This document shows, piece after piece, positions 25,901-54,700 of a DNA stretch of 64,000 nucleotides. Position 1 is the stretch's first letter. Every line of letters begins with the position of its first letter. The DNA comes from Proteromonas lacertae. Taxonomy: Eukaryota > Sar > Bigyra > Opalinata > Proteromonadidae. A program made the position numbers and the translations under genes. The DNA is taken from positions 62,001 through 126,000 of the forward strand of contig NGBS01001173.1 in NCBI GenBank assembly GCA_002245135.1. Direction: 5' to 3'. The notes beneath the pieces were generated by a model. The model saw only the letters and a list, made by a program, of their open reading frames with translations. It did no database searches and was not told the DNA's origin.

Positions 25901-28900
25901 ATGAATTATTACCTAAAGAAGAAGAAGAAGAAGAAGAAAGTATAAAAGAGAATGATGTAGATCCATGTTATTTATATGATGAAGATAAAGTAATGGATTT
26001 ACCAATAATCTATAATAACGAAAAAGATGAGAATGATGAATTATTAAAGAATGAGTTATTAGAAGGTGATGAATTATTACCTAAAGAAGAAGAAGAAGAA
26101 GAAAGTATAAAAGAGAATGATGTAGATCCATGTTATTTATATGATGAAGATAAAGTAATGGATTTACCAATAATCTATAATAACGAAAAAGATGAGAATG
26201 ATGAATTATTAAAGAATGAGTTATTAGAAGGTGATGAATTATTACCTAAAGAAGAAGAAGAAGAAGAAGAAAGTATAAAAGAGAATGATGTAGATCCATG
26301 TTATTTATATGATGAAGATAAAGTAATGGATTTACCAATAATCTATAATAACGAAAAAGATGAGAATGATGAATTATTAAAGAATGAGTTATTAGAAGGT
26401 GATGAATTATTACCTAAAGAAGAAGAAGAAGAAAGTATAAAAGAGAATGATGTAGATCCATGTTATTTATATGATGAAGATAAAGTAATGGATTTACCAA
26501 TAATCTATAATAACGAAAAAGATGAGAATGATGAATTATTAAAGAATGAGTTATTAGAAGGTGATGAATTATTACCTAAAGAAGAAGAAGAAGAAGAAGA
26601 AAGTATAAAAGAGAATGATGTAGATCCATGTTATTTATATGATGAAGATAAAGTAATGGATTTACCAATAATCTATAATAACGAAAAAGATGAGAATGAT
26701 GAATTATTAAAGAATGAGTTATTAGAAGGTGATGAATTATTACCTAAAGAAGAAGAAGAAGAAGAAAGTATAAAGAGAATGATGTAGATCCATGTTATTT
26801 ATATGATGAAGATAAAGTAATGGATTTACCAATAATCTATAATAACGAAAAAGATGAGAATGATGAATTATTAAAGAATGAGTTATTAGAAGGTGATGAA
26901 TTATTACCTAAAGAAGAAGAAGAAGAAAGTATAAAAGAGAATGATGTAGATCCATGTTATTTATATGATGAAGATAAAGTAATGGATTTACCAATAATCT
27001 ATAATAACGAAAAAGATGAGAATGATGAATTATTAAAGAATGAGTTATTAGAAGGTGATGAATTATTACCTAAAGAAGAAGAAGAAGAAGAAAGTATAAA
27101 AGAGAATGATGTAGATCCATGTTATTTATATGATGAAGATAAAGTAATGGATTTACCAATAATCTATAATAACGAAAAAGATGAGAATGATGAATTATTA
27201 AAGAATGAGTTATTAGAAGGTGATGAATTATTACCTAAAGAAGAAGAAGAAGAAGAAAGTATAAAAGAGAATGATGTAGATCCATGTTATTTATATGATG
27301 AAGATAAAGTAATGGATTTACCAATAATCTATAATAACGAAAAAGATGAGAATGATGAATTATTAAAGAATGAGTTATTAGAAGGTGATGAATTATTACC
27401 TAAAGAAGAAGAAGAAGAAAGTATAAAAGAGAATGATGTAGATCCATGTTATTTATATGATGAAGATAAAGTAATGGATTTACCAATAATCTATAATAAC
27501 GAAAAAGATGAGAATGATGAATTATTAAAGAATGAGTTATTAGAAGGTGATGAATTATTACCTAAAGAAGAAGAAGAAGAAAGTATAAAAGAGAATGATG
27601 TAGATCCATGTTATTTATATGATGAAGATAAAGTAATGGATTTACCAATAATCTATAATAACGAAAAAGATGAGAATGATGAATTATTAAAGAATGAGTT
27701 ATTAGAAGGTGATGAATTATTACCTAAAGAAGAAGAAGAAGAAGAAAGTATAAAAGAGAATGATGTAGATCCATGTTATTTATATGATGAAGATAAAGTA
27801 ATGGATTTACCAATAATCTATAATAACGAAAAAGATGAGAATGATGAATTATTAAAGAATGAGTTATTAGAAGGTGATGAATTATTACCTAAAGAAGAAG
27901 AAGAAAGAAAGTATAAAAGAGAATGATGTAGATCCATGTTATTTATATGATGAAGATAAAGTAATGGATTTACCAATAATCTATAATAACGAAAAAGATG
28001 AGAATGATGAATTATTAAAGAATGAGTTATTAGAAGGTGATGAATTATTACCTAAAGAAGAAGAAGAAGAAGAAAGTATAAAGAGAATGATGTAGATCCA
28101 TGTTATTTATATGATGAAGATAAAGTAATGGATTTACCAATAATCTATAATAACGAAAAAGATGAGAATGATGAATTATTAAAGAATGAGTTATTAGAAG
28201 GTGATGAATTATTACCTAAAGAAGAAGAAGAAGAAGAAGAAAGTATAAAAGAGAATGATGTAGATCCATGTTATTTATATGATGAAGATAAAGTAATGGA
28301 TTTACCAATAATCTATAATAACGAAAAAGATGAGAATGATGAATTATTAAAGAATGAGTTATTAGAAGGTGATGAATTATTACCTAAAGAGAAGAAGAAG
28401 AAGAAGAAAGTATAAAAGAGAATGATGTAGATCCATGTTATTTATATGATGAAGATAAAGTAATGGATTTACCAATAATCTATAATAACGAAAAAGATGA
28501 GAATGATGAATTATTAAAGAATGAGTTATTAGAAGGTGATGAATTATTACCTAAAGAAGAAGAAGAAGAAAGGTATAAAAGAGAATGATGTAGATCCATG
28601 TTATTTATATGATGAAGATAAAGTAATGGATTTACCAATAATCTATAATAACGAAAAAGATGAGAATGATGAATTATTAAAGAATGAGTTATTAGAAGGT
28701 GATGAATTATTACCTAAAGAAGAAGAAGAAGAAAGTATAAAAGAGAATGATGTAGATCCATGTTATTTATATGATGAAGATAAAGTAATGGATTTACCAA
28801 TAATCTATAATAACGAAAAAGATGAGAATGATGAATTATTAAAGAATGAGTTATTAGAAGGTGATGAATTATTACCTAAAGAAGAAGAAGAAGAAGAAAG

Positions 28901-31900
28901 TATAAAAGAGAATGATGTAGATCCATGTTATTTATATGATGAAGATAAAGTAATGGATTTACCAATAATCTATAATAACGAAAAAGATGAGAATGATGAA
29001 TTATTAAAGAATGAGTTATTAGAAGGTGATGAATTATTACCTAAAGAAGAAGAAGAAGAAGAAAAGTATAAAGAGAATGATGTAGATCCATGTTATTTAT
29101 ATGATGAAGATAAAGTAATGGATTTACCAATAATCTATAATAACGAAAAAGATGAGAATGATGAATTATTAAAGAATGAGTTATTAGAAGGTGATGAATT
29201 ATTACCTAAAGAAGAAGAAGAAGAAGAAGAAAGTATAAAAGAGAATGATGTAGATCCATGTTATTTATATGATGAAGATAAAGTAATGGATTTACCAATA
29301 ATCTATAATAACGAAAAAGATGAGAATGATGAATTATTAAAGAATGAGTTATTAGAAGGTGATGAATTATTACCTAAAGAAGAAGAAGAAGAAAGTATAA
29401 AAGAGAATGATGTAGATCCATGTTATTTATATGATGAAGATAAAGTAATGGATTTACCAATAATCTATAATAACGAAAAAGATGAGAATGATGAATTATT
29501 AAAGAATGAGTTATTAGAAGGTGATGAATTATTACCTAAAGAAGAAGAAGAAGAAAGTATAAAAGAGAATGATGTAGATCCATGTTATTTATATGATGAA
29601 GATAAAGTAATGGATTTACCAATAATCTATAATAACGAAAAAGATGAGAATGATGAATTATTAAAGAATGAGTTATTAGAAGGTGATGAATTATTACCTA
29701 AAGAAGAAGAAGAAGAAGAAAGTATAAAAGAGAATGATGTAGATCCATGTTATTTATATGATGAAGATAAAGTAATGGATTTACCAATAATCTATAATAA
29801 CGAAAAAGATGAGAATGATGAATTATTAAAGAATGAGTTATTAGAAGGTGATGAATTATTACCTAAAGAAGAAGAAGAAAAGAAGAAAGTATAAAAGAGA
29901 ATGATGTAGATCCATGTTATTTATATGATGAAGATAAAGTAATGGATTTACCAATAATCTATAATAACGAAAAAGATGAGAATGATGAATTATTAAAGAA
30001 TGAGTTATTAGAAGGTGATGAATTATTACCTAAAGAAGAAGAAAGAAGAAAGTATAAAAGAGAATGATGTAGATCCATGTTATTTATATGATGAAGATAA
30101 AGTAATGGATTTACCAATAATCTATAATAACGAAAAAGATGAGAATGATGAATTATTAAAGAATGAGTTATTAGAAGGTGATGAATTATTACCTAAAGAA
30201 GAAGAAGAAGAAGAAGAAAGTATAAAAGAGAATGATGTAGATCCATGTTATTTATATGATGAAGATAAAGTAATGGATTTACCAATAATCTATAATAACG
30301 AAAAAGATGAGAATGATGAATTATTAAAGAATGAGTTATTAGAAGGTGATGAATTATTACCTAAAGAAGAAGAAGAAGAAGAAAGTATAAAAGAGAATGA
30401 TGTAGATCCATGTTATTTATATGATGAAGATAAAGTAATGGATTTACCAATAATCTATAATAACGAAAAAGATGAGAATGATGAATTATTAAAGAATGAG
30501 TTATTAGAAGGTGATGAATTATTACCTAAAGAAGAAGAAGAAGAAGAAGAAAGTATAAAAGAGAATGATGTAGATCCATGTTATTTATATGATGAAGATA
30601 AAGTAATGGATTTACCAATAATCTATAATAACGAAAAAGATGAGAATGATGAATTATTAAAGAATGAGTTATTAGAAGGTGATGAATTATTACCTAAAGA
30701 AGAAGAAGAAGAAAGTATAAAAGAGAATGATGTAGATCCATGTTATTTATATGATGAAGATAAAGTAATGGATTTACCAATAATCTATAATAACGAAAAA
30801 GATGAGAATGATGAATTATTAAAGAATGAGTTATTAGAAGGTGATGAATTATTACCTAAAGAAGAAGAAGAAGAAGAAGAAAGTATAAAAGAGAATGATG
30901 TAGATCCATGTTATTTATATGATGAAGATAAAGTAATGGATTTACCAATAATCTATAATAACGAAAAAGATGAGAATGATGAATTATTAAAGAATGAGTT
31001 ATTAGAAGGTGATGAATTATTACCTAAAGAAGAAGAAGAAGAAAGTATAAAAGAGAATGATGTAGATCCATGTTATTTATATGATGAAGATAAAGTAATG
31101 GATTTACCAATAATCTATAATAACGAAAAAGATGAGAATGATGAATTATTAAAGAATGAGTTATTAGAAGGTGATGAATTATTACCTAAAGAAGAAGAAG
31201 AAGAAAGTATAAAAGAGAATGATGTAGATCCATGTTATTTATATGATGAAGATAAAGTAATGGATTTACCAATAATCTATAATAACGAAAAAGATGAGAA
31301 TGATGAATTATTAAAGAATGAGTTATTAGAAGGTGATGAATTATTACCTAAAGAAGAAGAAGAAGAAAGTATAAAAGAGAATGATATAGATCCATGTTAT
31401 TTATATGATGAAGATAAAGTAATGGATTTACCAATAATCTATAATAACGAAAAAGATGAGAATGATGAATTATTAAAGAATGAGTTATTAGAAGGTGATG
31501 AATTATTACCTAAAGAAGAAGAAGAAGAAAGTATAAAAGAGAATGATGTAGATCCATGTTATTTATATGATGAAGATAAAGTAATGGATTTACCAATAAT
31601 CTATAATAACGAAAAAGATGAGAATGATGAATTATTAAAGAATGAGTTATTAGAAGGTGATGAATTATTACCTAAAGAAGAAGAAGAAGAAGAAGAAAGT
31701 ATAAAAGAGAATGATGTAGATCCATGTTATTTATATGATGAAGATAAAGTAATGGATTTACCAATAATCTATAATAACGAAAAAGATGAGAATGATGAAT
31801 TATTAAAGAATGAGTTATTAGAAGGTGATGAATTATTACCTAAAGAAGAAGAAGAAGAAAGTATAAAAGAGAATGATGTAGATCCATGTTATTTATATGA

Positions 31901-32858: not shown

Positions 32859-35404
32859 CTATTTCAATCCATTAAAACCGTTATAATTATGATATGCTAA
32901 TAATGGATTATAATTATTCACTTTATATTGGTTTTGATAAGTTATATTCCTTTTTTCACTCACAATTGATTGTCCTTGAATTATAGGAACAGAAACTAAA
33001 GGAGTAATTTTCTGGTTTGTTGTTAAAAATGTGGTTTTATCTCTTGAACGGGGTGTTGTTCTACTTCTTTCACTTGATCTTGACCTGTTATATGTAGTAT
33101 ATTTTGTAGAAGAAGGATGAGGAGAACCAAGACCAAATTTATTCTGTATATAAGAAGAACCTTTCAATATTTTCACTGTTTGTTGTTGTTGTTGCTGCTG
33201 CTGCTGCTGTTGTTTATATTGTAATCTTAGTTTCAATTGATCTGAGAGAGAGGAAGAAGTTGCAAAAGAATACTTATTAATTCCAGACATATTTGAATTA
33301 ATTACAATTTTGGGATTATCACTTAGATGGCTAGTAATATATAATTCACTATCTCTATTACTGGTAGTAGAAATATTTGCAGCTTTTCTACTGGGAGATG
33401 AGATTGGTGATCTTTTTATAAATATTGCTGAAGATTCATTATTATTGTTACTAGTGACATTGACATTTTCTAATTTTGAAGATAATGTAGATGATGTATT
33501 ATTAGTTACAGAAGAAGAATTAGGTTTAGAAGATGAAGATGTAGTTGAATTTGCATTGGTATTTGGATTAACACGAGATGATAAATTACTTGGTGTTAAT
33601 GGTAATGGAGTTTTTGGTACAGTAATAGTTGTAAGACGAGTTAAAGATGTTGTTGTTGTTGTTGGAGTTTTTGGACGATTTGAAAATAGTTTGATTGAAG
33701 TTCGTGGTGTTGTATGTGTTACAGGAACTATATAATAATAATAAAATAGAGAGATAGATATATACTTGAATTTGCTCTTCTAGTTGACATTTTTGTTCTT
33801 TGTAATGGTTTTCTATAAGAAGGAATATTCTTTTCTTCATATTCTTCATCATCTTCTTCTTCTATATCTTCACTTTCACCTGTTTTACTACTCTTTTTTC
33901 TCACAATTACTGTTCCTCTTGATCCTTTACCGTTCAATTCTTCAGCTGCAGATAAGAATTGATCATATTTCTTTTGTTTTTCTGGATCATCTGATGGATA
34001 GATCAATTTAAGAATGTTTGAATATTTCAATTCTAATTTTGCTCTTTTTTCTTCATATTTTTCTTTTATTTTCACTTTATCAATACTATTCTTAGTTGTA
34101 TCTCCTCCATATAACCTTCTTTTTGCAGATATTCCATGATATTTACTGACATGTTTTCGATCATATGCAGATACTTGAATCATTGACAAAGTAGTACCAA
34201 TTACTTCAGTTTTCACTTGATTATCTAATGGACTGTCACAGGTAAATGATGGAGAATGATTTACTTCCATTAACCTATTAATTATATATATATATATATA
34301 TAATTTATACCATGGTTTACACTTCCTATCTACCAAAATATCAAATCCCAAGACTTCAAAACAATTATTATTTTCCATTTCATCGGGTATTGAAGTATGA
34401 TATGTATGTGCTAATATTGGTTGAATCATTATAATTGTCTTCACAATTACATCACACATATCTATCCAGAATTTATCACTATCATATCCTTGTTCAGTGA
34501 GGTATTTTAAAAACCAAATTATACTACGTTTAGTACCTCTTCCTATATCAGGAATATCAGATTTTATTTCAAAATCTTTTTCTGCTTTGTTTACTGCATA
34601 GTTTGTTAAATGCATTTTCATTTTTCCTAAGTTCTTTGAAGTTGGATCTGTATATTTTACAGTACAAATTCTCACTAGCCCATCGTGGAATATATATATT
34701 CTTAATGGATCACAACAAGTGACTAAAACATAGATTCTTAAATCAAACTAAATAAATATAAACGTTAAATATATAATTTTTATACTTTATAACCTTCAAT
34801 AAGCAAAGGTTTTGAGATATATATTTGTGCAACAGATTTTTCAGTTTGACTGATTTTTTCTAGTTTTTTGGTTAGAATAATGCCTCGTCCTTGACATCCT
34901 GCATCTGGCTTTACTATCATCACTTTATTGGATTTACCATTGATAAAATGGGACTTGAATTCTAACCAATCTTGGGGTAATAGAAATGTCTTTGGATAGA
35001 AATTGTAATCATCTGGAAATAGTTTCTGCATTTTATTTAAATGAAATCCCATTAGATTCTTTCGACATATATTCAACATTCCAGGAAAATGGTTAATTTT
35101 TTGATAGGATTGAAGTTTCATAATACGTTCAGGTAATACCGATAGATCAGACCAATATACATTCCATGGAACTTCATCATCGTCGCAACACCTATACCAA
35201 CCTTTTGCTTCAGCACACCGCTGAACAACTTCATAACTAATGAAAATTAAATTTCTATATTTTATACACTGTGTTTGTCATGTTAATATAGACGGCTGGC
35301 TTATGACTCTTAGATTTCTTTTTGTCTTCAATTGGCACAGGATCAGGGTATATTACATGACCACATTCATCCAGCAAAGTTTCTTCTGAACCATTATAAG
35401 TCAT
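32859..35404 (-). CDS. Tubulin tyrosine ligase-like (TTLL) protein, probable polyglutamylase
   Basis: Five exons joined in phase (introns just upstream of the YEVVQRC segment, 34748-34785, 34275-34310 and 33728-33765). ATG at 35404 (MTYNGSEETLLDECG), TAG at 32859. The TTL ATP-grasp core is complete: INMTNTVYEVVQR, NHFPGM, KTFLLPQDW, KPDAGCQGRGII, YISKPLLIEGYK, FDLRIYVLVT, HLTNYAVNK, FEVLGFDILVD and KPWLMEVNHSPSF. These signatures fit the TTLL4/6/7/13 polyglutamylase group, which adds glutamate chains to tubulin tails in axonemes and centrioles. The tail from about 33,930 down is Ser/Thr/Asn-rich with a poly-Gln run (33178-33214), probably disordered. Enzyme class is firm; the exact subfamily is not. 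Confidence 0.92.
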
Positions 35405-35600: not shown

Positions 35601-38600
35601 TTACTTATCTTGTGGAGTAGTGGGGATGGTTCTAACCTTATCTTTCACTCTTCTCAATAACACTGTATGTTTTGATTCAAATATATCAGTCACTTTTGCT
35701 TTTTCTTGAATTATCTGAATAGCATCGTTTAATTCTTTCACATATCCTGCCAATTTGCTAATACCTTCACCATGACCAGTAAGAGTTGATTTAATTCTCT
35801 TCACTTCTTTCACTAACGATTTACCAATCTCCAAACTGTTATTTTCTTTATCTTCAGATTTAATATCAAATTGTTTTTTCATTTTCTTCTTCTTTTCTTT
35901 CTTAAACAATCCATTAGCTGTCCAGTAAATCACACCATCTCTTCCTTCCATTTTTGTACCCCAATAATCTTCATCTAATAGTTCTAAAACAACTGATCTT
36001 CTTTTAATATCGAAATTATCTTTAGAATCAGTTTGCATACTCAAAATATCATCTACCATATATTCAGCCATCAAAATTTCCCAATTGATAACTGACTGTT
36101 CTCTCACTTTTGGATATAATTCTGCGACGATACCTACGAATAGTGATACCAATGCGATTGATAAGAAGACATATACTATGAAATAAATAGTATAAACGAA
36201 TCTTCTATCTAAATTATAGGTAATATCATAATTGTTATTGAATGAAGATGAGAATAATTGGAAGAAAACGTATAACAAATTTGAAAACTGTTCAACTTCA
36301 GCACTGTAGGAAACAGCATAGGAAATTGAAGTCATTAGTGTAATAAAGAAGAAAGCGAATAAATAAAGCATCACATCAATATCTCTTATAGTATCTATAA
36401 TTGCTAAAATCATAGGTCCCCATGTAGGAATATAACGGAAGAATTTAATCAATCTTAGACCATATAGGAATTGTAATACTGAGATGAAATCTAATTCGTA
36501 TTTCATAGTGGTTAGTATGCTGGAATAATCGGTGAAGGTTGTAGAGGAGAAATCGATTGTATAACTATTGATCTATTTAAATAAAATATAATTATATAAT
36601 TATATATATATACAATTTGACACAATATAAAATCCCATAGTAATAGTATTAAAATACATAAAATAATAATCCAATCAAACAATAACCAACCATCTTTAAA
36701 TTGATTTGAGAAACCTCTATTTCTATAAATATCTTTAACCTTATAATAAGCTTCATATAATAATTCACTAAGTAATGCAATATCGAAATAATACTATTCA
36801 AAAATAATGATAAATTAATAAAAATATAATAATATACTGATGGTGCATGTTGTAAATCAATGATATTACCAGATTCTACATACCAAGTAGGTTCAAATTC
36901 ACCTGTTTCTTCTTTATTACCAGATAATGTAACTAGTGCTAATCTTTGAGTTGATGGATTATAGAAATTGAATTTTATTTTCAATGATCTTGTCCATTCA
37001 TCTGTTAAACCATTTTGAACTAACTGTTGATATTCTAATTGAGCATTTTTCAAATTACCAATTGGTATATCTTTTTGAAAAGTTGTTTTTACTTTTCCTT
37101 TCATACATACCAAATCTTTATTCACTACTAAATCCCATTGACTACAACTGTCACTTTCATAAGAATCAATTTCTATTCTCATTGAACCAAATAAAAATGT
37201 ATTTCCATGATAAACAGTCATTCCATTCACTTTAGAAACTTGTAACATTCCATAATCATCAGGATTCAGCAGTACATCTGCTATATAGTTGTTGTAATCA
37301 TGATAATTGTATAATAAAAAGTAATTATATTGTGTTAAGTCATTTTTAACGAGAGTTTGATAAGCATTTTCAAAATCAGGTCTGTAGTTAGGAAATAATG
37401 GAGTAAAAGCGATATATAATATATAAAATGCAATAGCAACAATAGCAGGTATTAAACAGGCAGTTATTCCATAAACATTTCTTCTATGTTTCACTTCACC
37501 ACTTGTTGATAATAATTCTACCACTTTTGCTGCTCTTAATTTACTTTTAATTTGCTTTTCGGATTTCTTTTCACCAATTGCATTTTTCAACTGTTTTTTC
37601 CATTTTTCTTTTACTGTTAAAGTTTCATATCTACAAGCTTCATGGTCATCTTTCTTTTTTGGCGCTTTTATTCTTTTTAATTTCTTTTTATTACTGTTAT
37701 TATCATCATTATCATCTTTATCTTTCTTCCAACATAACCATCCACTTTTCTTCTTCTTCTTTTCATTATTATTATCATCTAAATTAATAATATCAATTCC
37801 ATTAGCAGAATCATCTTTATTCACCATACCATTGTCTTCCTTTTTCTCTTTCATTTCTTCATTAATTGTGGCTGTAACTTGCTTCAGTAAAGCTCTACCA
37901 TATGGAGAAATCAATGTTCCATCTTCTTCCATTGGATTTACTCCATGTTCTAACAATATCTGTATAACAGGAGTATGACCAGCTTTGACTGCTAAACTTA
38001 AAGGTGAATATTCACAATAATCAATAATCTTCTTATTCTTCTCATTATTTGTATTATTGTTATTATCTTCATCATTATCATTATCACTATCTTGATAACT
38101 ATCTCTACCAGTTTCTTTATTGATTCTTCCTGTTTTCATTCTATCAGTGTCTTGTGTTGATTCTCTATTAGTCATTGCTGATATGTTGTTACTGGTATTA
38201 TTATTATCATTTGAAGTTGTTGGAATTAATGGAGTTCCAGGTCTTGATCTTGATGACATAAAACCACCAGCACCACCTCTTCCACTTCTTAATTGGTCAT
38301 TACTATTACTACCCTCTTTGTTGTTATTATTACTTAACATCATACTGTTACCTAAACTACTCATTTCTTTCTGATGTTTTTGTAATTTTGCTATGGCATT
38401 CATAGATGATTCTCTTCTTGAACTTTGCATATTCTTTCTAGAAGAATTGATTGGTGAATTTACATTACTGTTTAATTCATCAGGATTTCTAAATACTGAT
38501 TTGATTAATGGATTATTATCTTTTGCTGGAGTTCTCATTACAGCATTTGGTATTTTTAATAATGGAACTGGTTCTATATTATTATTATTATTATTTCCTC

Positions 38601-41600
38601 CAGAATTATCATTATTAATAGATGGAGTATTTGGTGTTGTTGGTGATTCATTATTATTATCAATTCTTCTTGATACTGGATTAGGTGTTTTGATTAATAA
38701 TGATCTATTCATTGACATTGGGGATTCAGTATTGGAAGTAATATTCTGTATAATTGCACCTGAAAGTCTTTTATTTGTTGCACCTCTTGATAATACACTT
38801 GTACGTTTATTCGGTTTTGTTTTTGGTGTATTATTTTCTGTAGTTGGTGTATTATTATTTGTTCCATCTGATGGGAATTTCAAACCTCCAACTGGGTTAC
38901 TATTAGCATCAGGTGTTAATATAGATCCTTTTTGTAACGACTCTTTATTTTTATTCTTTTTTACCAACATACTTTTCTTCTTAGTAAATGCTGGTTCATT
39001 ATTATCTTTATCTTTATTTTTTCCTTTATTCTTACCTTTTGCTATTGCATCTATTTGTTTCTTAACAGAATCATTCTCATTTTGTTGTTGTTTATCATCT
39101 TCAATAGGTAAAACTTTACTAGTTCTAGCTGTAGCATGAAAGAATATATTATTACTATGTTCAATTCTACTATGCAAAGTATTCAAATCGACTGAATTAT
39201 CTCTTAATAATAACGCTAATATTTTATCATGTCCGTTTGCACATGCATGATGTAAGGCTGTGTAGCCGTTATTATCTTTCTCCAATACTTGTGCCCCAGA
39301 TCTTAACAATAAATCAACAATTTGATAATTACCTAAAAATACAGCTAACATTAAAGGAGTCATTCCTGTATTATCTTTAAGTTCAATATTCGCTTTGAAT
39401 TTAATTAATAATTCACAAACAGCTAAATGTCCTCTTTTTACAGCTAAATATAAAGGGAAATGACCATATTGTTTGTCTTTATAGTTTATATTTGCAACTA
39501 TATCATCATCTGATTGGATTAGTAGTGGAATAATATCGATTTGATCATTTCTACAAGCTCTATGTAAATACAAATTGAACAATTGTTTTTTCAATTTTTC
39601 TGTTTCTTTCATATTATGTTTTAAAGAGTGATAATCATCGTAAACATTAGCTGTAGAAATCAAAGCAGGATCTTCTCTTACTTGAACAAATGAATAACCT
39701 AACAACAAAATATCCCGAATTATCTCCAAATTATCCATTTGAAATGAACATTTTTCTTCATCTGATAAATACTCATATGGAACTAATAAATTCGATGTTT
39801 TACCTGTTGCATTACTATTCACATCTGGACTATATTTACATCCATTATCCATCATGTTCTTACTCCATATTTCATGTGTATTCTTTGATAATCCTTGAAT
39901 TAACATCAATAAATTAGGATCAATTTCTATATCATCTGTACATAATACAGCTGGATAATAATCTTCAGGAGTAGCTGTTTCATCCCAATCAGCTTTTGTT
40001 GCTTCAACAATACCTTCTTGTTCACATACTAATTCATATCCGAAATATTTAATCATTTTTATAGTATTTGTTACATCTTTTACATAATTCTTTCTTTCAT
40101 TCACTGTCATTGCATTCCAAGGAATTAACATCGGATCAATCATAGCATTTTCATCTCTTTGCATTCCTAATTGCCATCCTTCATCTATCTTCTCTCTCGC
40201 CCATAACTCATGTTCATTGATTGCTAAACATTCGATTAAATCCTTCAAATTATCATCATCTTCGATTAAGTTACTTGGATCTATAGGATGTGGTTGGTAT
40301 TTATAACCTTCAGTTTCTCGTTTATCTACACCCAATAAGGAGATACAGGTGTTTTTAGTACAGTTACAATATGTATCAGCGATTAAACCTTTATATTCAG
40401 TATCATGACCTTTATGGCATTTTTGATTGCAAATTAGACAGATGAATACATCGCAGGTTTTACATCGATACATATGTTGAGTGATTGGATTAGTGAAGTT
40501 GGCAAAAGCAAATGTACATGATTTACGATCTATATTATAATAATAATAAATGCAAAAAAGAAATAGATTTATACATTTTAATCTTCGAGTAAATTTCAAC
40601 AATAATTCATCTATTTCTATACTATTTTCATCAAATCTCAACAATCCTTCTACTACATCACTTTTTCCTGTTATTATCATATAATTCAATAATTTATAAA
40701 CTGCTTGACCTGTGCATCTAATTACTATGACTTCCTGCCATTATTAATGATTTACAACAAGCGATATCATCTTTTAATATCTAATAATAATATATATATT
40801 ACAATATATACAGCATAATCTAATTCACAATAACCTGTTTCTTCATTAATATCATTCAATTCGATAAAATTTGGCCATTCATTCATCACTATATCAATAA
40901 CTTCACTTTGGTTATTCCAAGCAGCAATATCGATCTAAATTACAATAATATTAAGAAATAAATATTTATATATACAATATTATAACCTTGTTTTAATCGA
41001 CGATTGATTAAATTCTTTTCTTTAAACATTTCACGATAATCTTCAGTCAATACACTATCAAATAAACCATATTTACAATTATAAAACAAACAATCCCAAC
41101 CACGATCATCTATATTTATCATTAATTGAAAGATTTTGGCTTTCTTCTTTAGTTTTTCATTGATTATGTTGAACATCTTTTCAGTTACATTTTTATCACT
41201 ATGAATGGATAAAGATATACAATTTGCATGATATCTAGATTTGGCTTGAGATTTGACTTTACTGTTACTTAATAATAGTGAAACTATTTCATAATTTGCC
41301 ATTTCACAAGCGATCATTATTGGAGTATAACCATCAGTATATGAAGGTAAATTCAAATCTGCACAACCTGAAGTTATTATCTTTTCAGCAATCTATTCAA
41401 CAAATTAATATATATATATATATACTTCAGTTCTATTTAATCTACAAGCTAAATGTAATGGAGTATCACCCATTATATTCTGAATATTCATTCCAATTTC
41501 ATAATTAAATAACAAATCAACTAAATTACTTCTTCCAGATTTAACTGCACAATGATATAGATTCTCATCCAAAGGAGCACATTTTCCATTTATCTTTACA

Positions 41601-42897
41601 TTATCATTCGAAGTTGTTATTTTATCTAATAACCTTTTAACTATTTCATCACTTTCATAATAAATAGCATATCGAATATCACTTATTTCAGGTGTTTCTT
41701 CACGTAAACAAATTACATAGCTATTGGTATTATTATCAGCTAAAATTCCTTCACTACCTCCAAATACAAAATCTTCACCACAACAAATTATTTCATTTTT
41801 TTGCCATAATTCAAAACATATGGTTGGATGATCTGTTCCAACAGTTTCATGTAAAAATTGGAAATTTTTATTCAACCAATTAGGATGTTTATTGTGGTTT
41901 GGCCATAAAATGAATAAATTACATCGACATTTACTTCGCATTGATAAAAAATCATTTGCTGTATTAGTACGATCAGCTTGATAGCCACTTATAAAAAAAC
42001 TATTTATTATCATACTAGGAATTGAAGTAAATTTATTCTTCTTATCAACCCAAGGTTTTTCATCTACATTTAATGGACTCGGACTGATTTGATACTTATT
42101 CATTGATTTTACTGAGATTATATCAGCTATTGGATTTTCATTATTACTATTATAATCTTTCTCAGCAATTGTGGCTAATTCTGGACTAGTTGATAAGATT
42201 AAATTGATTTTTTCATATTCAAATTTTTTATAAATTTCTTTACATTCATCTATATTGTAACCTTTACAAGCATCACTTATACAATAAATTGTAGTTTTAT
42301 TCACATGCATATTACAGTCTAGTATATTGTATTGTAAACCATATTCAACAGCTATTATATATTATATTGTATTATATATACGTAAACCACAAAAATATAT
42401 TTCATTTATATTATTTTTATTCAATATATCTTGTAATACACAACTTGCAGTTTCTTTACTTTCTAAATTCAATTTTCGAGTTTCACGGAAACCACTATAA
42501 TTATCTCGACTAGGATGAATACCACAGTTTATTATTATATCACTTGGACGAGTTATTAATTCTGGGTGTAATTCTGCTCCATATGTTCCAGCTACACAGT
42601 AATCTTTCCATAACATCTGAGGACCTATTCCTGGTAAGTGACTTACTTTACCACAGGGAAAGCCAGGATTGTTTGAAGCAAAAGAGATGTGATTGAGAGG
42701 ATGCCATAATTTTAGAATTATTGTAAAGTCAAATGCTTTTCGACGAATTTTGTTGATTATTGGAATTATTTCTTCAGCTTCAGGAACAGGAACTACTCCA
42801 TTACTGAAAAAATCATTCTATTATTATTAATAATATACTATTCTCATACTTGAACATCAACGATTATAAGAGCACGAATTTGAGATCCTTTAGGCAT
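35601..42897 (-). CDS. Nicotinamidase-like / ankyrin / UBR-box / RyR / ankyrin / polycystin-type channel
   Basis: One gene of about a dozen exons, about 2,200-2,300 aa; the junctions checked restore frame. In order: (1) nicotinamidase-fold domain from ATG 42897 to about 42230 (ALIIVDVQNDF, LWHPLNHISFAS, GAELHPEL, NYSGF); (2) unknown linker and ankyrin repeats (about 41640-40740; GDTPLHLACRLNRTE, DGYTPIMIACEMANY); (3) UBR-box zinc finger (about 40530-40365; YRCKTCDVFICLICNQKCH then KGHD); (4) two RyR repeats (about 40300-39660; HELWAREKIDEGWQLG, HEIWSKNMMDNG); (5) ankyrins (39570-39180); (6) a long Asn/Ser-rich insert with another ankyrin near 37990; (7) polycystin-type TM1 (about 37420), extracellular domain, TM2-TM6, pore near FFQLFSSSF, and a C-terminal coiled coil. 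It is likely a membrane cation channel, perhaps ciliary, with cytosolic sensor domains. Intron near 40697 is unusually short (22 nt). Confidence 0.85.
42230..42897 (-). other. Degenerate nicotinamidase (PncA/isochorismatase-fold) domain
   Basis: Aligned by eye to PncA. The catalytic Asp is kept (VDVQNDF). The catalytic Lys position is Cys (IINCGIHPSRDNYSGF). The nucleophile Cys of the usual GLATDYCV motif is Gly (GLPVEYGLQY). Of four metal ligands, both histidines of WHPLNH are kept, while the preceding Asp is Leu and the His of WPDHCV is Tyr (LWKDYCV). The fold looks intact but the chemistry should be lost. A binding or sensor role is inferred. Confidence 0.8.
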
Positions 42898-43027: not shown

Positions 43028-44224
43028 ATGTTCTCTTCTTGGTTGAACAATCACAAATTTGAGGTATTAATATTTATTTATTTTTAATTTTGTGATTTAG
43101 TTATTGAGTGATAGAAGTAATAATAGGATGTGTAAAATTCGAGATGCATCTAAGAATTCAAAGAGATTGTTGAAAGTGATGAATGTAAGTGAGTTAGATC
43201 CAGATATAGTTGATGAAGTAGTATTAATAATGAATAAAATGAACAATTTGAATATTAGTGGTTTAATGAAGTATAAATTAATCGAAAATGACGAAAATTG
43301 TTTGTATCTAGTGATGAGAGAATATAAAACTCACTTAGATAGAATTAATCCTTTCAAGTATTATGAAGAAAGTGGTTCATTTGAAGTCTTGAAAGGAATT
43401 TTAATGGTATTGAAAAGCTTAAATGAAACAGGAACAATTCACAGTGATTTAAAACCATCCAACATATTTATAACTGATGAAAATGAAATTAAGATAAGTG
43501 ATTATTGTATTAATTTATTATACAAAGGAAGAGAAGGTAAAAAATTTGCAGGAAAGATGGAAGATTTATGTTTTATTTGTTATGATGAATTATTAGGAAA
43601 AGAGTTAGATATAAGTAGTGATATATGGAATTTTGGATTGGTGTTTTACTATATAGAAAGTGGAAAATATCCATTTGTTGGAAAAAATATGTCCGAGACA
43701 TTATTAAATATATTAAATATCAATTATATTCCATTAAGCAGTGAAACTGACAGTGATGGATTAAACAAATTTCTAAGAAAAGTGTTAGTAAAAGAAAAGA
43801 AAGATCGTTTAAAACTAGATAAAATATTGAAGGAATTGAAGAGTATATATAATTGTAAGTTTTATAATTAAATAGGATTAAATGAACCAGAACTTCCAGT
43901 AACTCCTCATGAAGTAGAAGATCTTTTAATTCCACCAATTCCAATTATAATAGGAAGTACAAAAGTTGCTGATTGGATGAGTATATAAATAAATATATAA
44001 TTATTATTATTAACTAGAAAATTGTATTGATTCTAAAATCAGTCAATGTAAAAACTCTAATGAAAATGAGTTGAATTTTGATGGATGTATATATATATAT
44101 AACAGTTATTAAATATTATATAAATAGTGGAAATGAAAGATGAAGAGATGAAGTATTTATTTTCCTCACTTGATACAATGAAGAATATTATAAAAATAGA
44201 TGTGAGTAGTATAATAATAATAAT

Positions 44225-45104: not shown

Positions 45105-48100
45105 ATGAATTCACTTTCTAGTTGGTTAAATAAACGCAAATATGAAGTATAATTATCATTTATGTAATGTTTTAAAATTTTAGTTGTTAAATGATAAAAA
45201 TATCAGTAGATTATGTAAAATTCGAGATATTTCAAGCGATTCAAAGAAATTATTGAAAGTAATAAGCCTGAATGAGTTAGATCCAAAATCAGTTGATGAT
45301 GCAGTAACCACCATGAACAATGTGAATAATTTGAATATACCCGGATTGATGAAGTATAAAATAATTGAAAAAGATGGAAACTACTTATATAGAATAATGA
45401 CAGAACATGAAACTCATTTAGATGAAATAAATCCAATAAAATACTTTTCAAATCATGATTCATTTAAAGTAATGAATGGGATACTGACAGTATTGAAGGG
45501 ATTGTATGAAAATGGAACAATTCACAGTGAATTAAAACCATCTAACATATTTTTGAAGGATAAAGATGAGGTAATAATAAATGATTATTGTAACAATTTA
45601 TTATATAAAAGAAGAGAAGGTAAAAGAATATCAAAGATAGAAGATTTATGTTTTACTTGTTTAGATGAGTTAGTTGGAAAAGAACTTGATGTATATAGTG
45701 ATATATGGAACTTTGGTTTAATACTCTATTATATAAAGAGTGGTAAATATGCATTTCGTAGTTTAAATATATTACAAACAATAGACAATATACGAGACAT
45801 AAAATATGTTCCATTAGACTGCGAATATGACAAAGAGTTAAACTCAATTTTGGGTAAAGTGTTATGTAAAGAAAAAAAGAATCGCTTAAAACTTGATCGC
45901 ATAATGACTGAAATACAAAGTATTGATGTTTAATAATTATTATTTAGAATTGAATAAGGCTGAACTTCCAACAGTTCCATTTCAAGTAGAACCAGAAATT
46001 CCTGCAATCCATTTTGATATAGAGAGTGTAGAAGGCTTTGCAGATTTAGAAGAATATAGAAGAGCAATTCTATACTTTAAACGAGCATTGGAATTATCTA
46101 CCACAAATAAAGATAAATCAGATAATAATAACCAAATTGGTATATGTCATTTCAAAATGGTATATATATATATATATATATATATTCTTCTATACAATGG
46201 ATAATTAGAATGAATATAAAGAAGCTATTCCTTACTTCAAAAGTTCGCTAGAGTTTTCAGAATTAGATGATATGAAAAATGTTACTAATAGAAACATAGG
46301 TGAAAGTTATTATGGGATGGTATAGAAATAATACTATAGCTATAATAGAAAGAATTTAAAGAGGCTATTAAATATTATAAAACATCTTTAGAGTATAGTT
46401 CATCAGATGAGATAAAATGTAAGATTAGTAATCGTATTGGTTTATGTCACTTCAATGTTGTATATATACAATATTTAATAATTATAGAAAGAATACGGAG
46501 AGGCAATTCCATATTTTAAAACAGCTTTAGAATATTCATCATCAGACGAAATGAAGTTTGAAAATAACAACCAAATTGCTTCATGCTTTTTTAATTTAGT
46601 ATAATATTAAGATGATATTTACAACATATCTTAGAAAGAGTATTTAGAAGCAATTCCTTACTATAAAGCAACAATAGAGTATTCTTGTTCAGATGATGAA
46701 ATAAAGTCAAATAGTTATAGCATGATTGGTTTATGTTTATTTTTAATGGTATAGAATCAATATATAATTTTGAAATAGAACAAATATGAAGAAGCAATTA
46801 CATATTATAAAAGTGCATTAGAATATTCTTCATCAAATGAGATGAAAGAAGTATTTAGTAAGACTGTAGGTAATTGTTATTATAATTTGGTATACTTAGT
46901 ATTGATTTAAATTCAAATAGGATAATTATGTTGATGCAATTCCATATTATATAAGCGTATTAGAAAAATCTTCATCAGATGATGTAAAAGCAGAAGTTAA
47001 TCAGAATATTGGTAATTGTTATATACAGATGGTATAATAACTTGAATGTAATATTGAATAGGATAAATACAAAGAAGCTATCCCTTATTATAAGTCTGCA
47101 TTAGAAAACTGTTCATCAGATGAAAAGAGAGAAGTTCTTAATCAAAATCTTAGCTTATGCTACTATAATCTTGTATAATAACCAAATCATAATAATAAAT
47201 AGAAAGAATATAAAGAAGCAATTCCATATTTTAAAAACATATTAGAGAATACATCAAAAAATGATGTTAAATCAAATATTAACAATAAAATTGGTTTATG
47301 CTATTTCTATGTTGTATAAATTCATTAAACTATTATTGGATAGAATGAAAGTTCAAATGCAGTTATGTATTATAAGGTTGCTTTAGAGTATTGCTCATCA
47401 AAAAAAATGAAGGAAGTTATTAATCAAAATATCAGTTTGTGTTTATATAAGAACGTATTGAAAATGATATATTCCATTGTATAGAAAGATTTTGAAGAAG
47501 CTATTCCTTATTATAAATATGTAATAGATAATTCTTCATCAGATGATAATAAGATATCCAGTAGCATTCAAATAGCTCTATGTTATTTTAATATGGTATT
47601 TAACACATTGCTATATATAAATAGAAAGAATATATGCAGGCTGTTCCATATTTCAAATATGTATTAGAAAATTCTTCATCAGATGATGATATAAAAGAAA
47701 CATTCAATCAGAATATTGGTAATTGTTATATACAGATGGTATAATAACTTGAATGTAATATTGAATAGGATAAATACAAAGAAGCTATCCCTTATTATAA
47801 GTCTGCATTAGAAAACTGTTCATCAGATGAAAAGAGAGAAGTTCTTAATCAAAATCTTAGCTTATGCTACTATAATCTTGTATAATAACCAAATCATAAT
47901 AATAAATAGAAAGAATATAAAGAAGCAATTCCATATTTTAAATACATAGTGGAGAATTCTAAATCAAATGATATAAAAGAGATATTCAATCAAAATGTTG
48001 CTAATTGTTATTATAATATTGTATAAAAGTCATAATATAATCATTATATAGAAAGAATATAAAGATGCAATTCCTTATTATAAGGCTGCTTCAAAATATT

Positions 48101-48768: not shown

Positions 48769-51700
48769 TTATTCTATAAACTTCCATATCTCAATCTCAT
48801 TTTCACTTGAAACTATTATATCTTCACCATTTAGATTATATTTTATATTATATATTGGATCATAACCATGATTTATATGACATATTAAATCTATTATTAT
48901 AATAATAAATAGAAATATACCAAATGTCTGTGGGTTTATAACAACAATACATCCATTATAAGTACAAAATGATAAATACATAATCTTATTGTTTTTCAAA
49001 CTAAATCCATAATCCATATCAACTATCCAACTCTCTAAATCGAAACTATATTCTTCATTTCCACTTGAATAATTATATTTTATTAAAACTGGTGGATAGG
49101 CATTACTAGTTAGATAGATTATGTTGTTTTCTATTGGAGAGAATAATCCTAAAGTTGGAGTAGCTGGTCTTTCATTGTTTAACATTATTTTATCACTCTT
49201 TTTATCATTAATTTTAAATATATCAATTGGGCTTGGCTCGTTTTCAATACTAAATATTATTATTATTAAATAAAAAAAATATATATACATTTTCCACACT
49301 GAGATTTGTCTACTTCGACTTGTACATAAGAATATGTTATTATTATTAACATTCACTATACTGGTGTCAATCTCACTATCTTTATTCAACATATATTTAT
49401 CATTTAAATCAATTGTATGACTAGAAAATCGTAGCTTTATATTATTATTATTTTCATTATCATCTTCATATTCTAACATTGTATAACCAATACAACCATC
49501 AATTGTACCAACAATTATTCCACTACTTTTATCATTTACAAAACATACACTACTAATTGGAGTTGTATAAGGCCTCATATGATTCAAATATTGATTAGTA
49601 TATAAATTGTAGAATAATACTCTACCATCATTTAAACCAATGCAAATTGGTATTAATTCATCATCTATCTCATTACTTATATCATAACAACTTATCTCTA
49701 GAATATTTTCATTATTTAAATCTTTTCTTAATTTGATTTCTTCCACTTTTATATTTGTATTACAATCCCAGAAATTCATTACATCTTTATTACAGGTTAT
49801 ATATAATAGATTATTTAAACAGTATTTCAGTTTTAAACCATCAATTTCACATTTGTTAATATATTTTGATAGTTTCTTTTCATTTATATTTAATTCATAG
49901 ATTTCATTATTAGAAGTTCCAATAAAACAAGCATAATTGGTTTCTTCAATTGATATTGCTTTAATATATCCATTTATGGAGATATAGCTACTGTTTGGTT
50001 GACCTTTCATTAGTTTCAATGATTCTCTCATCTTACAGATATATAATCCATCAAATAATCCACTTATATATAGTTTATTATCAATCCAAATCATCTTATT
50101 GATTTCTGCATCTAATGGCCAGTGATTGTAAACTTTACCATGACTATCACATAAGTAGAGAAAGTGGTTCTTCTTACTGATTATAAACTTACGATTTTCA
50201 CTTCTTACTATTTAAATATATCAATAATATATATATACATCTTTTAGGTTTTCTTACTATATAAGTAATTTCACTTTTATCAGTTATTGATTCATATATT
50301 ATATTATGACTTACGATCTCAGGTTTGTCATATTCACTCATTATATCACATATATACAAATCATTATTGATTGAATATAATAGCGTTGTATTCTCTAACC
50401 AAATTATATGATTTACTGCTTTTTCACATTCAAAATTATAGATTTCGCTGGAGATTAGATCGTATATTTCAACTATTCCATTCTCACTTGTAACACACAT
50501 AAATCTTCCACTTTCATTAAAACTCATTTCGTTAATATAGGAAGAGTAATTGTGTTTAGATATAAGGGTGTATTTGTTTTGAGTTAATCGATAGAATAGT
50601 AATATTGAATGACTTTCAGAGAATATATCACATATTACACTTAATGTACAAGCTATATAAAAATATTAATATAAAAGGAAAAAAGATTATATATATATAT
50701 ATATATACAATTTTTACAATATTTGATTGTTCTAACATATCCTTCACAGAGTATTGATATTTGATTTCTTGTTTCTATTTCATGCATAATAATCCTTTGG
50801 TTGATCGTATATAATAATTGATGATATTCACTTAACCATATGATATTATCAACTCCATTACCATTATAACCTAATACATTATGTAACTTTAACTTATTAT
50901 TGATATCTATATCATATTCACCTATACTCTCGAATAGAGTGTTTATTTCATTATTATCTTCATTTTCTTCTTCTTCTTTTTCTATTTCATTATTATCCCA
51001 TTCATATTCAATATTATTATTATCATCATTATATACATCATCTATTGGAAATGATGTTTCTGTGTTATTTCCAGTATGTATTTCAACAGTATTATCCATT
51101 TCATTATCTTTATCATTATAATCTTCTTCTTCTTCTTCTTCTTCTTCATTATCTGTATTAGTTGTATTTGTATTTGTATTTGTATTTAATGATTTACTAC
51201 TAAATATCCCATTCTCTATTTCTACATTTTCATCACTTTCATTGTTATTTATTACACTACTCACAGTTTGAATAGTTGAACTTATATTATCTAAATTATT
51301 ATTATTATTTATTATATTATTAATATTGTTATTATCTTCTACTGAATTTAATTCATTATTATTATTATTATTATTATATTCATTAGGTGGAGGTAATTCA
51401 CTACCACTATAACTTTCTTCACCATTATCAGAATACACTGTACTACTTGTATTATCTGTATTTGTTATTATAATATGATCATTATCATAATCATTCATAG
51501 TTACATCAGGACTCATAACAATTGGTTTAATATCACTTTCACCTTCATTACCATAGAATTCCCAAATATATAAACAATTAGAATCATCAATTGAACTAAT
51601 ATATCTTCCATTATTACTTATTTTAATATCTTTTACTTTACCAGTATGACCTATAAACGATTGATAAGATGCATTTGGACCTCCTGTTTTCAATAGCATA

Positions 51701-54700
51701 TCATGAATACCAATTGACCCATTCTCCGCACCAGTAATGAAATATAATGGTGAAGATATTGTCAAACTACTAACTTTGGGATTATATATAGAATTACAAC
51801 TTCTTATCCTACTTCCATTATCTACATTATAGATATACATCTCATTGTTAGAAAGAATAGTCAATAGCTCTAATCCATGAATAAACTCAATACAATTGAA
51901 TAATAGTTTATTTGTTAAGTTAGATTCGTCTGGAATTATCAAAGTATTCATTTTCCTTTTATTACTATCTGGTGGATAGATATGATTAACGATATTCAAT
52001 GTTATACAGTCATATATAATAATCTCACATCCTTGTGGCACTAATAAACCCAATCTAGTACCTAAATCATTCATTTTCATTGTTGAAGTAATTATACCAA
52101 GTGGTCCTTTTGATTGACTCATTTTTATAGGGTTATAATTATCACTGATATCGTAAATACATATAGCTCCATCTACTGAAGAAGAATACAAATAATGACC
52201 AGAGAAATGATAGATTACAGAGACAACCTTGGAATTATGTTGTTTCATTTGCTTAATAAGTTTTTGCTCATTTATATCAACGATTTTAACCATACCACTT
52301 TCAAATCCAATTGCTACAAAATCTCCATTAGGATGAAAAGCACTACATATTGCTAAATCATATAAATGAGTTGGATTTAATTCTATTAGACTATTATTAT
52401 CATTAATAGATTTGGATTTACTTTTAAACTCTCTTAATTCACAACATGTATTAATATCCCATAATCTTAAAGTTCCATCTTTTGAAGTAGTTAAAATTGT
52501 TTTATTATTTGGACTAAATTGTACAGATAATATTTCATCAGAATGTGAACGTAATAGTGTGATATGTTTATGATTTGATATATTCAATATTCCAATAACT
52601 CCATTTATAGTTCCAATTATTACATCTAATCCATCATTACTTATATCTAATGATGTTATAGCTACATCATGATTTGCTTCTAAGTAGAAGTCACTAAAGT
52701 CCAAAGGCCATACTCTGACATAACCATCATCACTCCCTGTTATACAAAACCCTTCGTTGATTAATATGCTATTAATGCAATCATCATGCAATCTAAATAC
52801 ACATTCTAATGCTTTATTATTACTATTTATCTGTACAACTGTTCCTTTATTGGAAGCTACAAATATTCGTGGTAATATATTATAAGTATCAGACATATCA
52901 AATGTACTTTCAAAGGCAATATCTGTATAGGTTATACCTCTTGCATATTCATTTAATACAACAGGACAACTATGTAATACTTCCATTCCTATTTGATGAT
53001 GTCTTTTGATTCGATATCTTCGCCAAAATCGAATATTTTCATAACCGCAACTAATAACCTGTTCATGTTCATGATTCTCTGGAAATGGACAGAATTTTAT
53101 TCGTTTTACATTTGCTTCGTTATTTTTCTTCACTAAAGGTGGAATAAATCTTTTACTATCAACATTTTCATTCCTTATATCTTCCATTGAGTATAATATG
53201 ATTTCAGTTAATCCTTTTATTCCACTACCTGCAATTACTAAGTAATCACTATTACTACATAAATTCATATCGTATATCTCATTAACAGGTAAATTGAAAG
53301 GTCTCAAGCTGGAGTTTGAAGCTATATCCCAATAGATAAGTGTTGGATTTTTACCACTTTGAACTGTTAAAATAAATTCTCCTTTTTTATCAATTTCTAT
53401 TCTTTTAATTGGCTTAGAATGACGTAATAATATATTTTGTTTTAATGGTATATTTTGGCTATTATTATTATTGTTATCTTTTACATTATCTTCATCGTTA
53501 TTAATGTATCTTTCCATACTCACCAATAGTGGACCAGTTGGATAATAAATCAAAGAACTAGTTGCATTCCATTTAATTATATTGTGATATTGATTATTAA
53601 ACCCAATTGTTGATTTTAAGGACATGATCGGATCTGGCTGTAAAACAGAATGAGACAAGGACTGAGCCAATAAAGCTTGACTGATTTGGGTCTTGGATTG
53701 AGATTGGCTTGATGGATATGAATTTGTAATACTGTTATTATCACTAACAGTTGGTTTATTAACGGATCTATAGAGGGGAGAGACATTCTTTGCTGCTTGT
53801 ATATAGGATTTCAATAATTCATTGGTTTTATTCATTTGTTTTGTTGATCTGAAGGATATTGGCGTTCTTTCTGCTTTTGTACTGATTTTTGATTGATTTA
53901 ATGCTTCTGCTGTTGAAGAAGATGATTTTTCTGTTGTACTTACTGTTGTTGTTGTATCATTCATTTTATTTGACAAATTGTTGTTATTTTCATCATTCTC
54001 TTGTTTATTCTTGGATACTAATTGAGATATTGCATTTTTACCACCCATCATCTCTTCATCATGCTTAACTTCTGGTAACCAACAAAAATCATAATCATCA
54101 TAGAATGTTCGTTTATTTCTAAGTGGAAACTTCATGTCACGAGGTAATGTAATTTCACTGTAAGAGGTATCACTGGTGTAAACTCCTCGAATTACTAATG
54201 TTGCACAAATTTGAATCTATAAAAAAATAATAACATAGATATAAATGATAGATATATACATTTTTAATAGACCAACTCCATTCAATAGAATTGTCTACTG
54301 GATTTAAATCTGAATAATCTTTCACTATTGATAGTAAATCAAGTGATAAAATTGTCCACTTTTCTTTAGGAAATACGAATGGAACCTATATCAATAACAA
54401 AATATGAATAATTACTTGAATAGTGTTAGGATTAGTAAAAGATGGCCTTTTATACATGTTGCTAACTGAAATACGCAGCAATGAAGATGTATCTTTCATT
54501 TTTATTGTTATATGAATGACATATAACTCAGGATCCATTCCTTTACATTCAAAGTAACTACAATAGAAATAGAAATATAATAAATCATACATATATCTTC
54601 CAGTTAAGCCTAATGACTTGCCTTTATCTGGAATAGTAATGGATGTTGAAGCAGATGTGGAACCTTGAAGTGTATAGACTCTCTTACCTATGATTCTATC

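Follow-up and report, generated by a model that had tools for sequence, protein, structure and literature searches.

Nicotinamidase-like, UBR-box, and RyR domains predicted in one protein with a polycystin-type pore in Proteromonas lacertae

The nearest described kin of the predicted channel family reported here are the PKDRR channels of oomycetes, which combine a polycystin with RyR (R) domains. According to the abstract of the 2020 description, this structure is oomycete-only; in our reading, the R domains are C-terminal, behind the pore, and subfamilies are split by the C-terminal extension past the last R (PMC7399828). In human TRPM2, the NUDT9-H domain does not hydrolyze ADP-ribose, yet ADP-ribose gates the channel (PMC4974056). 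Crystals of the R12 repeats of RyR3, obtained with AMP-PCP or ADP, have dantrolene and an adenine nucleotide co-bound in a pseudosymmetric cleft (Trp880 and Trp994) with clamshell closure, and Lys884 and Arg895 contact the phosphates (PMC12627627). RyDEP, a small phage glycosidase, binds and cleaves the cyclic ADP-ribose (cADPR) isomer signal 2'/3'cADPR via H75, W78, H100, and D117; six of eight phage homologues tested handle or bind 2'/3'cADPR signals, and two tested relatives are sponges (2026 preprint, PMC13232231). Here, we describe a gene in a window of 64,000 nucleotides from Proteromonas lacertae (assembly GCA_002245135.1, contig NGBS01001173.1, positions 62,001 to 126,000 of the forward strand) for which the modelled domain order is a nicotinamidase-like domain, an additional conserved domain, ankyrins, a UBR box, two RyR repeats, further ankyrins, and a polycystin/TRP-type pore. 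No published channel with this domain set was found among the open-licence papers and the matches listed.

The gene lies on the minus strand at 42,897-35,601 (hereafter the window copy). When it was spliced at eight GTA...TAG introns of 30 to 45 bases each, with one odd 22-base join allowed, a reading frame of 2,325 codons resulted, closed by a TAA codon. The three unspliced minus-strand frames (~2,432 codons per frame) contain 117, 244, and 274 stops, and the long open exons are therefore not due to chance. Along the spliced protein, Pfam placed Isochorismatase (residues 9-197; 50.5 bits, cut-off 27), ankyrin blocks, two RyR repeats (residues 789-990; 112.3 bits, cut-off 27.4), ankyrins, and Ion_trans (residues 1968-2161; 40.1 bits, cut-off 25), which puts the RyR repeats N-terminal to the pore.

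We scanned the 50.2-Mb assembly (1,181 contigs) and found 12 RyR repeats over the cut-off, two per gene in six genes. Three paralogues, named by contig as C22, C377, and C396, align with the window-copy protein from the nicotinamidase-like domain to past the pore at 42 to 44% identity; between C377 and C396, identity reaches 74%. Among the three, only C22 has GTA...TAG introns throughout (seven of them), and this clean copy shows zero breaks. Five of the nine joins of the window copy share codon and phase with C377 and with C396, and one does so with C22; the splice models of C377 and C396 hold odd introns inside the unconserved linker. The additional conserved domain (residues ~205-400) occurs in all four genomic copies. 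By profile comparison, it weakly resembles a GH2 beta-galactosidase chain at that chain's C-terminal end (E 0.021), and the predicted fold of the exon that carries it has a mean pLDDT of 34.5.

The family extends to P0121, a 2,615-residue protein from a metagenome, which was colinear with it when the four genomic copies served as queries. Matches covered the N-terminal domain (E 4e-22 to 1e-28), ankyrins with the UBR box and first RyR repeat (E 2e-49 to 5e-70), the second RyR repeat with ankyrins (E 6e-34 to 3e-53), and the pore region (E 4e-10 to 3e-14; hhalign probability 95.3), and the domain at ~205-400 was without a visible counterpart. Pfam on P0121 gave two RyR repeats, ankyrins, and, just under the cut-off, Isochorismatase (23.9 versus 27 bits); the same scan gave no match to Ion_trans. 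It also placed an RGS domain at residues 985-1096, after the first RyR repeat and before the second, a hint that channels of this type may receive G-protein signals, and the Ala/Arg-rich make-up of the protein suggests a GC-rich source genome. P0121 was the sole match of an ankyrin-free protein search (1 among 572 candidates). Two broader protein searches were swamped by ankyrins, and P0121 was not among the matches listed, which were the best 120 of 133 (2,714 candidates) and the best 120 of 1,570 (6,903 candidates); since these searches missed even P0121, the absence of further relatives cannot be read from them.

Because three paralogues and P0121 keep the domain order, we conclude that the fusion is not a mis-join and regard the single-gene architecture as established with very little doubt. 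The window copy does have a frame break at 40,731-40,710, across which two adjacent genes could have been joined by the model. In C22, however, a single exon (26,887-29,155, residues 381-1137) runs across the junction without a break, and C377, C396, and P0121 also read through its equivalent. We therefore reject two genes or chance joining, an artefact that C22 and P0121 refute for the family and to which we give almost no credence. The stretch was likewise rejected as a normal intron: the paralogues are without an intron there and retain the residues that it would delete, and it spans only 22 bases, in contrast to the other eight introns with their GTA start and greater length.

C377 has two frame slips of its own, one just before the LWHP motif of the nicotinamidase part and one inside the UBR box. 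Elsewhere in the window, a 21-kb array on the plus strand (11439-32598; ~129 units of ~162 bases) encodes a 54-residue acidic repeat. Of the 110 spacings below 200 bases between adjacent units, 40 are not divisible by three, giving repeated frame breaks that reflect either assembly indels or decay. Based on the slip in the window copy, the two in C377, and this array, assembly indel errors are a likely cause of the slips in both genes, and real lesions in some copies are also possible. All copies were read with the bases left as sequenced. The argument for a single gene is carried by C22 and P0121, so its odds are unaffected by the slips in C377.

The first-pass annotation of this DNA had proposed one protein from this exon chain and had named the interval between about 42,230 and 40,530 as a place where separate genes might part. 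The slip does fall in that interval, yet C22 has one continuous exon across it, and the one-protein chain is borne out by splicing and by the order kept in the three paralogues and P0121. Pfam likewise agreed with the two RyR repeats and the ankyrins that it had read, but its domain list was incomplete, as the conserved domain at ~205-400 was not named.

The closest solved relative of the nicotinamidase-like domain is the Acinetobacter nicotinamidase 2wt9, with a whole-domain match (E 4.9e-31). The NCBIfam nicotinamidase model PRK11609 matched C22 (E 7.2e-30, 104.4 bits) and P0121 (E 8.8e-15), both under the equivalog cut-off of 174. The domain also resembles nicotinamidase (PncA) in the Trp68 equivalent that lines the pocket, which is kept in 5/5 relatives. 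Unlike PncA, the family has replaced the triad Lys (C, C, C, C, and I in the window copy, C22, C377, C396, and P0121) and, in the same order, the triad Cys (G, G, G, G, and S) and the metal-binding His71 equivalent (Y, Y, F, F, and V). The metal Asp is Leu in the window copy, C22, C396, and C377 read past its slip (LWHPLNH), P0121 not being alignable at this place. Of the genomic copies, only C396 departs at the general-base Asp of the triad, having Asn there; the window copy, C22, and C377 keep it, and the P0121 letter is unusable here owing to a wrong start. Triad and metal residues are all kept in 2wt9, 1ilw, 29iv, and C188, the genome's own stand-alone nicotinamidase, in which Phe replaces both Trp68 and Tyr103. 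C85 seems to be a different sort of isochorismatase-like gene and not the source of the channel domain. In Mycobacterium tuberculosis PncA, Cys138Ala, Lys96Gln, and Asp49Gly left activity undetectable (PMC3025910). Because none of the five relatives retains the catalytic Lys or Cys, the domain is almost certainly catalytically dead; because the pocket Trp is kept in all five, binding of a ligand without turnover is possible.

Pfam did not list zf-UBR for the window-copy protein, and in the C22 exon both zf-UBR (11.4 bits, cut-off 25.2) and the higher-scoring zf-B_box (16.9 bits, cut-off 24.1) were under their cut-offs. A profile built from four sequences, with C377 left out, ranked the UBR box of human UBR4 at the top (8j9r, E 6.4e-9); FBXO11, plant BIG, and UBR5 came lower, and a TRIM-family B-box chain only at E 0.04. 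The zinc-ligand Cys/His pattern (QH-Y-C-x2-C and CH-x2-H), shared with UBR4-type boxes, is present. Asp1715 of UBR4 holds the peptide amino group of the N-degron (PMC10687169), and by our own placement it would lie in the CDC motif, for which the five relatives have CNC, CFC, CAC, CGC, and CGC. Although UBR4 has the most similar box, we rejected canonical N-degron reading, given Asn, Phe, Ala, Gly, and Gly at the Asp1715 equivalent (Asp in 0/5). The box also differs from the UBR4 type in being located in a channel and not in a ligase, and no ubiquitin-ligase domain was found in the Pfam scans. We conclude that the UBR box is real and that N-degron reading by it is improbable. Among prokaryote and viral contigs, pattern searches for relatives of the box gave 41 and 29 matches, respectively, none of which was confirmed.

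For the RyR pair, a match was obtained to animal RyR2, in its R12 repeats (E 1.1e-31). The Trp of HxxW is kept in 14/14 repeats (12 from the genome and 2 from P0121), and Lys+7 and Arg+18 are present in the first repeat (RyR1) of the window copy; by our own mapping, these residues would correspond to Trp880/Trp994, Lys884, and Arg895 of RyR3. The family thus resembles ryanodine receptor R12 in having RyR repeats with cleft tryptophans and differs from ryanodine receptors in its pore family and in being without RIH/ITPR domains, none of which were listed for the window-copy protein (Pfam, E 0.1). The spacing of the RyDEP residues (H-x2-W-x21-H-x16-D), compared as residue spacing and not from aligned RyDEP sequence, recurs in the first repeat of C22, C377, C396, and P0121 (4/5). 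In animal RyR2, Asn occupies the position of D117 in both repeats. P0121 and the four genomic copies form one group (support 89/91) in a tree built from eight RyR pairs. Based on these residues, the RyR pair is the best candidate for a sensor and better supported as such than the nicotinamidase-like domain. Searched against phages, the first repeat of C22 matched 199 records with E values no higher than 1, of which two, both unannotated and from the human gut, cover at least 80% of the query at ~40% identity.

The family pore profile matched PKD2L1 best among solved structures (5z1w, E 5.2e-12; the main match begins at profile position 151), with TRPC3 next (E 2.8e-7), and the window-copy pore sequence alone matched no solved structure at E 0.1. 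PKD_channel was over its cut-off in C22, C377, and C396, where the C377 and C396 stretches cross stops, i.e., introns; the window-copy exon was not among the 10 PKD_channel matches of the genome scan. The LGD selectivity filter of PKD2L1 is not conserved, being SSS, CSS, or CSA in the four genomic copies, and calcium selectivity must therefore not be assumed; the family would be a putative cation channel. Other PKD_channel matches (C994, C1140, C135, and C48) had no RyR motif in the long frames examined. By a sequence motif, C994, C1140, and C135, but not C48, look like voltage-gated channels.

Like the PKDRR channels, the family has a polycystin/TRP pore and two RyR repeats in one protein; unlike them, as far as the available text describes them, it carries the RyR repeats N-terminal of the pore, behind the nicotinamidase-like domain, ankyrins, and UBR box. 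Two further genes of the same genome (C1088:177298-179233 and C227:39441-42119) are arranged as in PKDRR, with two RyR repeats after a polycystin pore, and the genome thus holds two pore-first and four RyR-first genes. Its composition and short introns make an oomycete source unlikely. The likeness to TRPM2 is one of logic and not of ancestry, in that a channel of the TRP superfamily is fused to a domain from a metabolic enzyme; here, the fold is that of nicotinamidase and not Nudix, it sits at the opposite end of the protein, and the channel subfamily is another. No Nudix or NUDT9-H domain was found in the window-copy protein (Pfam, E 0.1). The first-pass annotation had known of no described channel with this set, which held in the literature examined but missed PKDRR as the nearest kin (PMC7399828, in the portions available). 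Its PncA-fold domain stood by sequence and lost its active site, its UBR box was recovered by the four-sequence profile despite falling under the Pfam cut-off, and its polycystin-type pore was upheld by Ion_trans and by the family profile.

We tentatively favor a reading in which the protein is a polycystin-like member of the TRP superfamily that would be gated by nucleotides via the RyR clamp, with the dead nicotinamidase as a binding or scaffold module. The large N-terminal cytosolic part would be a ligand-sensing and assembly module, in which the RyR pair would act as a clamshell closing on an adenine-containing nucleotide, whether ATP/ADP, ADP-ribose, or a cyclic relative. The ankyrin blocks would relay this closure to the pore, while the dead nicotinamidase would hold a ligand without turnover or act as an oligomerizing scaffold, and the UBR finger would be a protein dock. 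A channel reading NAD+/nicotinamide metabolites, as suggested in the first-pass annotation, is plausible. Several points weigh against nucleotide gating. In the window copy, two of the four RyDEP residues are lost, with Asp and Tyr at the H100 and D117 places of the first repeat, and the RyR pair is on a long branch (1.5); this copy, the most diverged in the RyR clamp, may have another ligand or a regulatory role or may be in decay, and the frame slips also suggest that some copies, the window copy and C377, may be decaying. The second repeats of the family are without H+25 and D+42 in 5/5. In exon-by-exon scans, the genome had no match to TIR_2 (control matched in 4/14 genomes) and none to a CD38-type cyclase or RYDR_ITPR domain, for which the controls matched nowhere; all three absences are weak. 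The predicted model of UBR-RyR-RyR-Ank (mean pLDDT 53.8) is poor outside the ankyrins of the second block, where alone it is confident. Finally, the proposal of nucleotide gating remains sequence-based.

It is possible, if somewhat doubtful, that the N-terminal domains are scaffold only, i.e., former ligand or enzyme domains kept for assembly, targeting, or tethering, and that the channel is gated as other polycystins are, by lipids, Ca2+, stretch, or voltage. The loss of known active residues in two of the three imported domains (nicotinamidase and UBR box), the half-lost RyR site of the window copy, and the RGS domain in P0121, which suggests protein docking, are consistent with this, whereas the RyR Trp and the nicotinamidase-pocket Trp, kept throughout, and the RyDEP-spaced His/Asp of four first repeats, P0121 included, argue for a retained site. 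A further, rather unlikely proposal builds on both retained sites: the family would be a second, independent NAD-metabolite-gated channel of the TRP superfamily, reading two NAD+ breakdown products simultaneously, with nicotinamide or nicotinate held by the dead nicotinamidase and an adenine or ADP-ribose-type nucleotide by the RyR clamp. A specific receptor for cADPR isomers (2'/3'cADPR or cADPR) in an immune-like or stress response would fit the RyDEP spacing in C22, C377, C396, and P0121 and the handling or binding of 2'/3'cADPR by RyDEP and six of eight phage homologues (PMC13232231). We consider it improbable in view of the missing TIR_2 and CD38-type cyclase matches (the latter with a silent control), the two residues lost in the window copy, and the AMP-PCP or ADP in the crystals of animal R12 domains (PMC12627627); as ligands, cADPR seems less likely than linear ADP-ribose or plain adenine nucleotides. 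Strong nicotinamidase similarity (2wt9; PRK11609 for C22) would suit an active channel-enzyme that hydrolyzes nicotinamide or another amide, but the replaced Lys and Cys, the metal Asp, and one metal His led us to reject a working nicotinamidase, and such an enzyme is very improbable. Nucleotide gating through the RyR clamp is thus the reading that we carry forward, and the features on which it draws are located in the table.

Table. Positions of the modelled channel gene, its domains, and the frame slips (window coordinates unless a contig is given)
Feature	Position	Strand	Basis
Window-copy gene, 10 exon pieces as modelled	35601..42897	-	Splicing; intron positions compared with paralogues
Window-copy exon pieces 1-5	42897-42850, 42817-42382, 42351-41426, 41392-40976, 40934-40812	-	Splice model
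Window-copy exon pieces 6-10	40780-40732, 40709-40575, 40529-36838, 36793-36614, 36572-35601	-	Splice model
Nicotinamidase-like (Isochorismatase fold) domain, residues 9-197	42245..42873	-	Pfam, structure-profile match, residue table
Conserved domain, residues about 205-400	41636..42223	-	Paralogue alignment; weak GH2 beta-galactosidase match
First ankyrin block, residues about 425-710	40579..41563	-	Pfam, paralogue alignment
Frame slip, modelled as 22-base intron	40710..40731	-	Non-intronic in paralogues
UBR-box zinc finger, UBR4-like, residues about 716-777	40333..40518	-	Family profile; CNC where UBR4 has CDC
RyR repeat 1	40030..40299	-	Pfam, 78 bits in genome scan
RyR repeat 2	39688..39960	-	Pfam, 55.7 bits in genome scan
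Second ankyrin block, residues about 1033-1161	39181..39567	-	Pfam
Long Asn/Ser-rich linker, poorly conserved among paralogues	38023..39180	-	Alignment
Ankyrin repeat preceding membrane part, residues 1548-1581	37921..38022	-	Pfam, alignment
First transmembrane segment, residues 1735-1753	37405..37461	-	Hydropathy
Loop between transmembrane segments 1 and 2, later part polycystin-like	36838..37386	-	PKD2L1 profile match
Pore-forming transmembrane region (Ion_trans), residues 1968-2161	36096..36718	-	Hydropathy, Pfam, profile
C377 frame slips (UBR box and nicotinamidase part)	L016 near 1580 and 3830 (contig C377)		DNA read

Other genes were observed around the channel gene. Two protein-kinase open frames, close to one another, lie upstream of it on the plus strand (43101-43871 and 45184-45933), and a tubulin-tyrosine-ligase family gene is directly downstream on the same strand as the channel (33728-35277, of which 33731-34747 was scanned). 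A long WD40/beta-propeller open frame occupies 50653-54216 on the minus strand.

The occurrence of polycystin-RyR fusions in two domain orders within one genome is set against the 2020 description, in which, by its abstract, such a structure was oomycete-only (PMC7399828). The family makes it testable whether RyR R12 repeats are pore-coupled receptors for nucleotides or cADPR; if the two-product proposal were true, the channel would offer a natural test, with a pore attached, of the long-standing idea of R12 as a (c)ADPR-type receptor. It also makes testable how often dead metabolic enzymes become channel sensors, for which TRPM2 is the known example. The architecture suggests a new way to wire nucleotide or NAD metabolism to ion flow.

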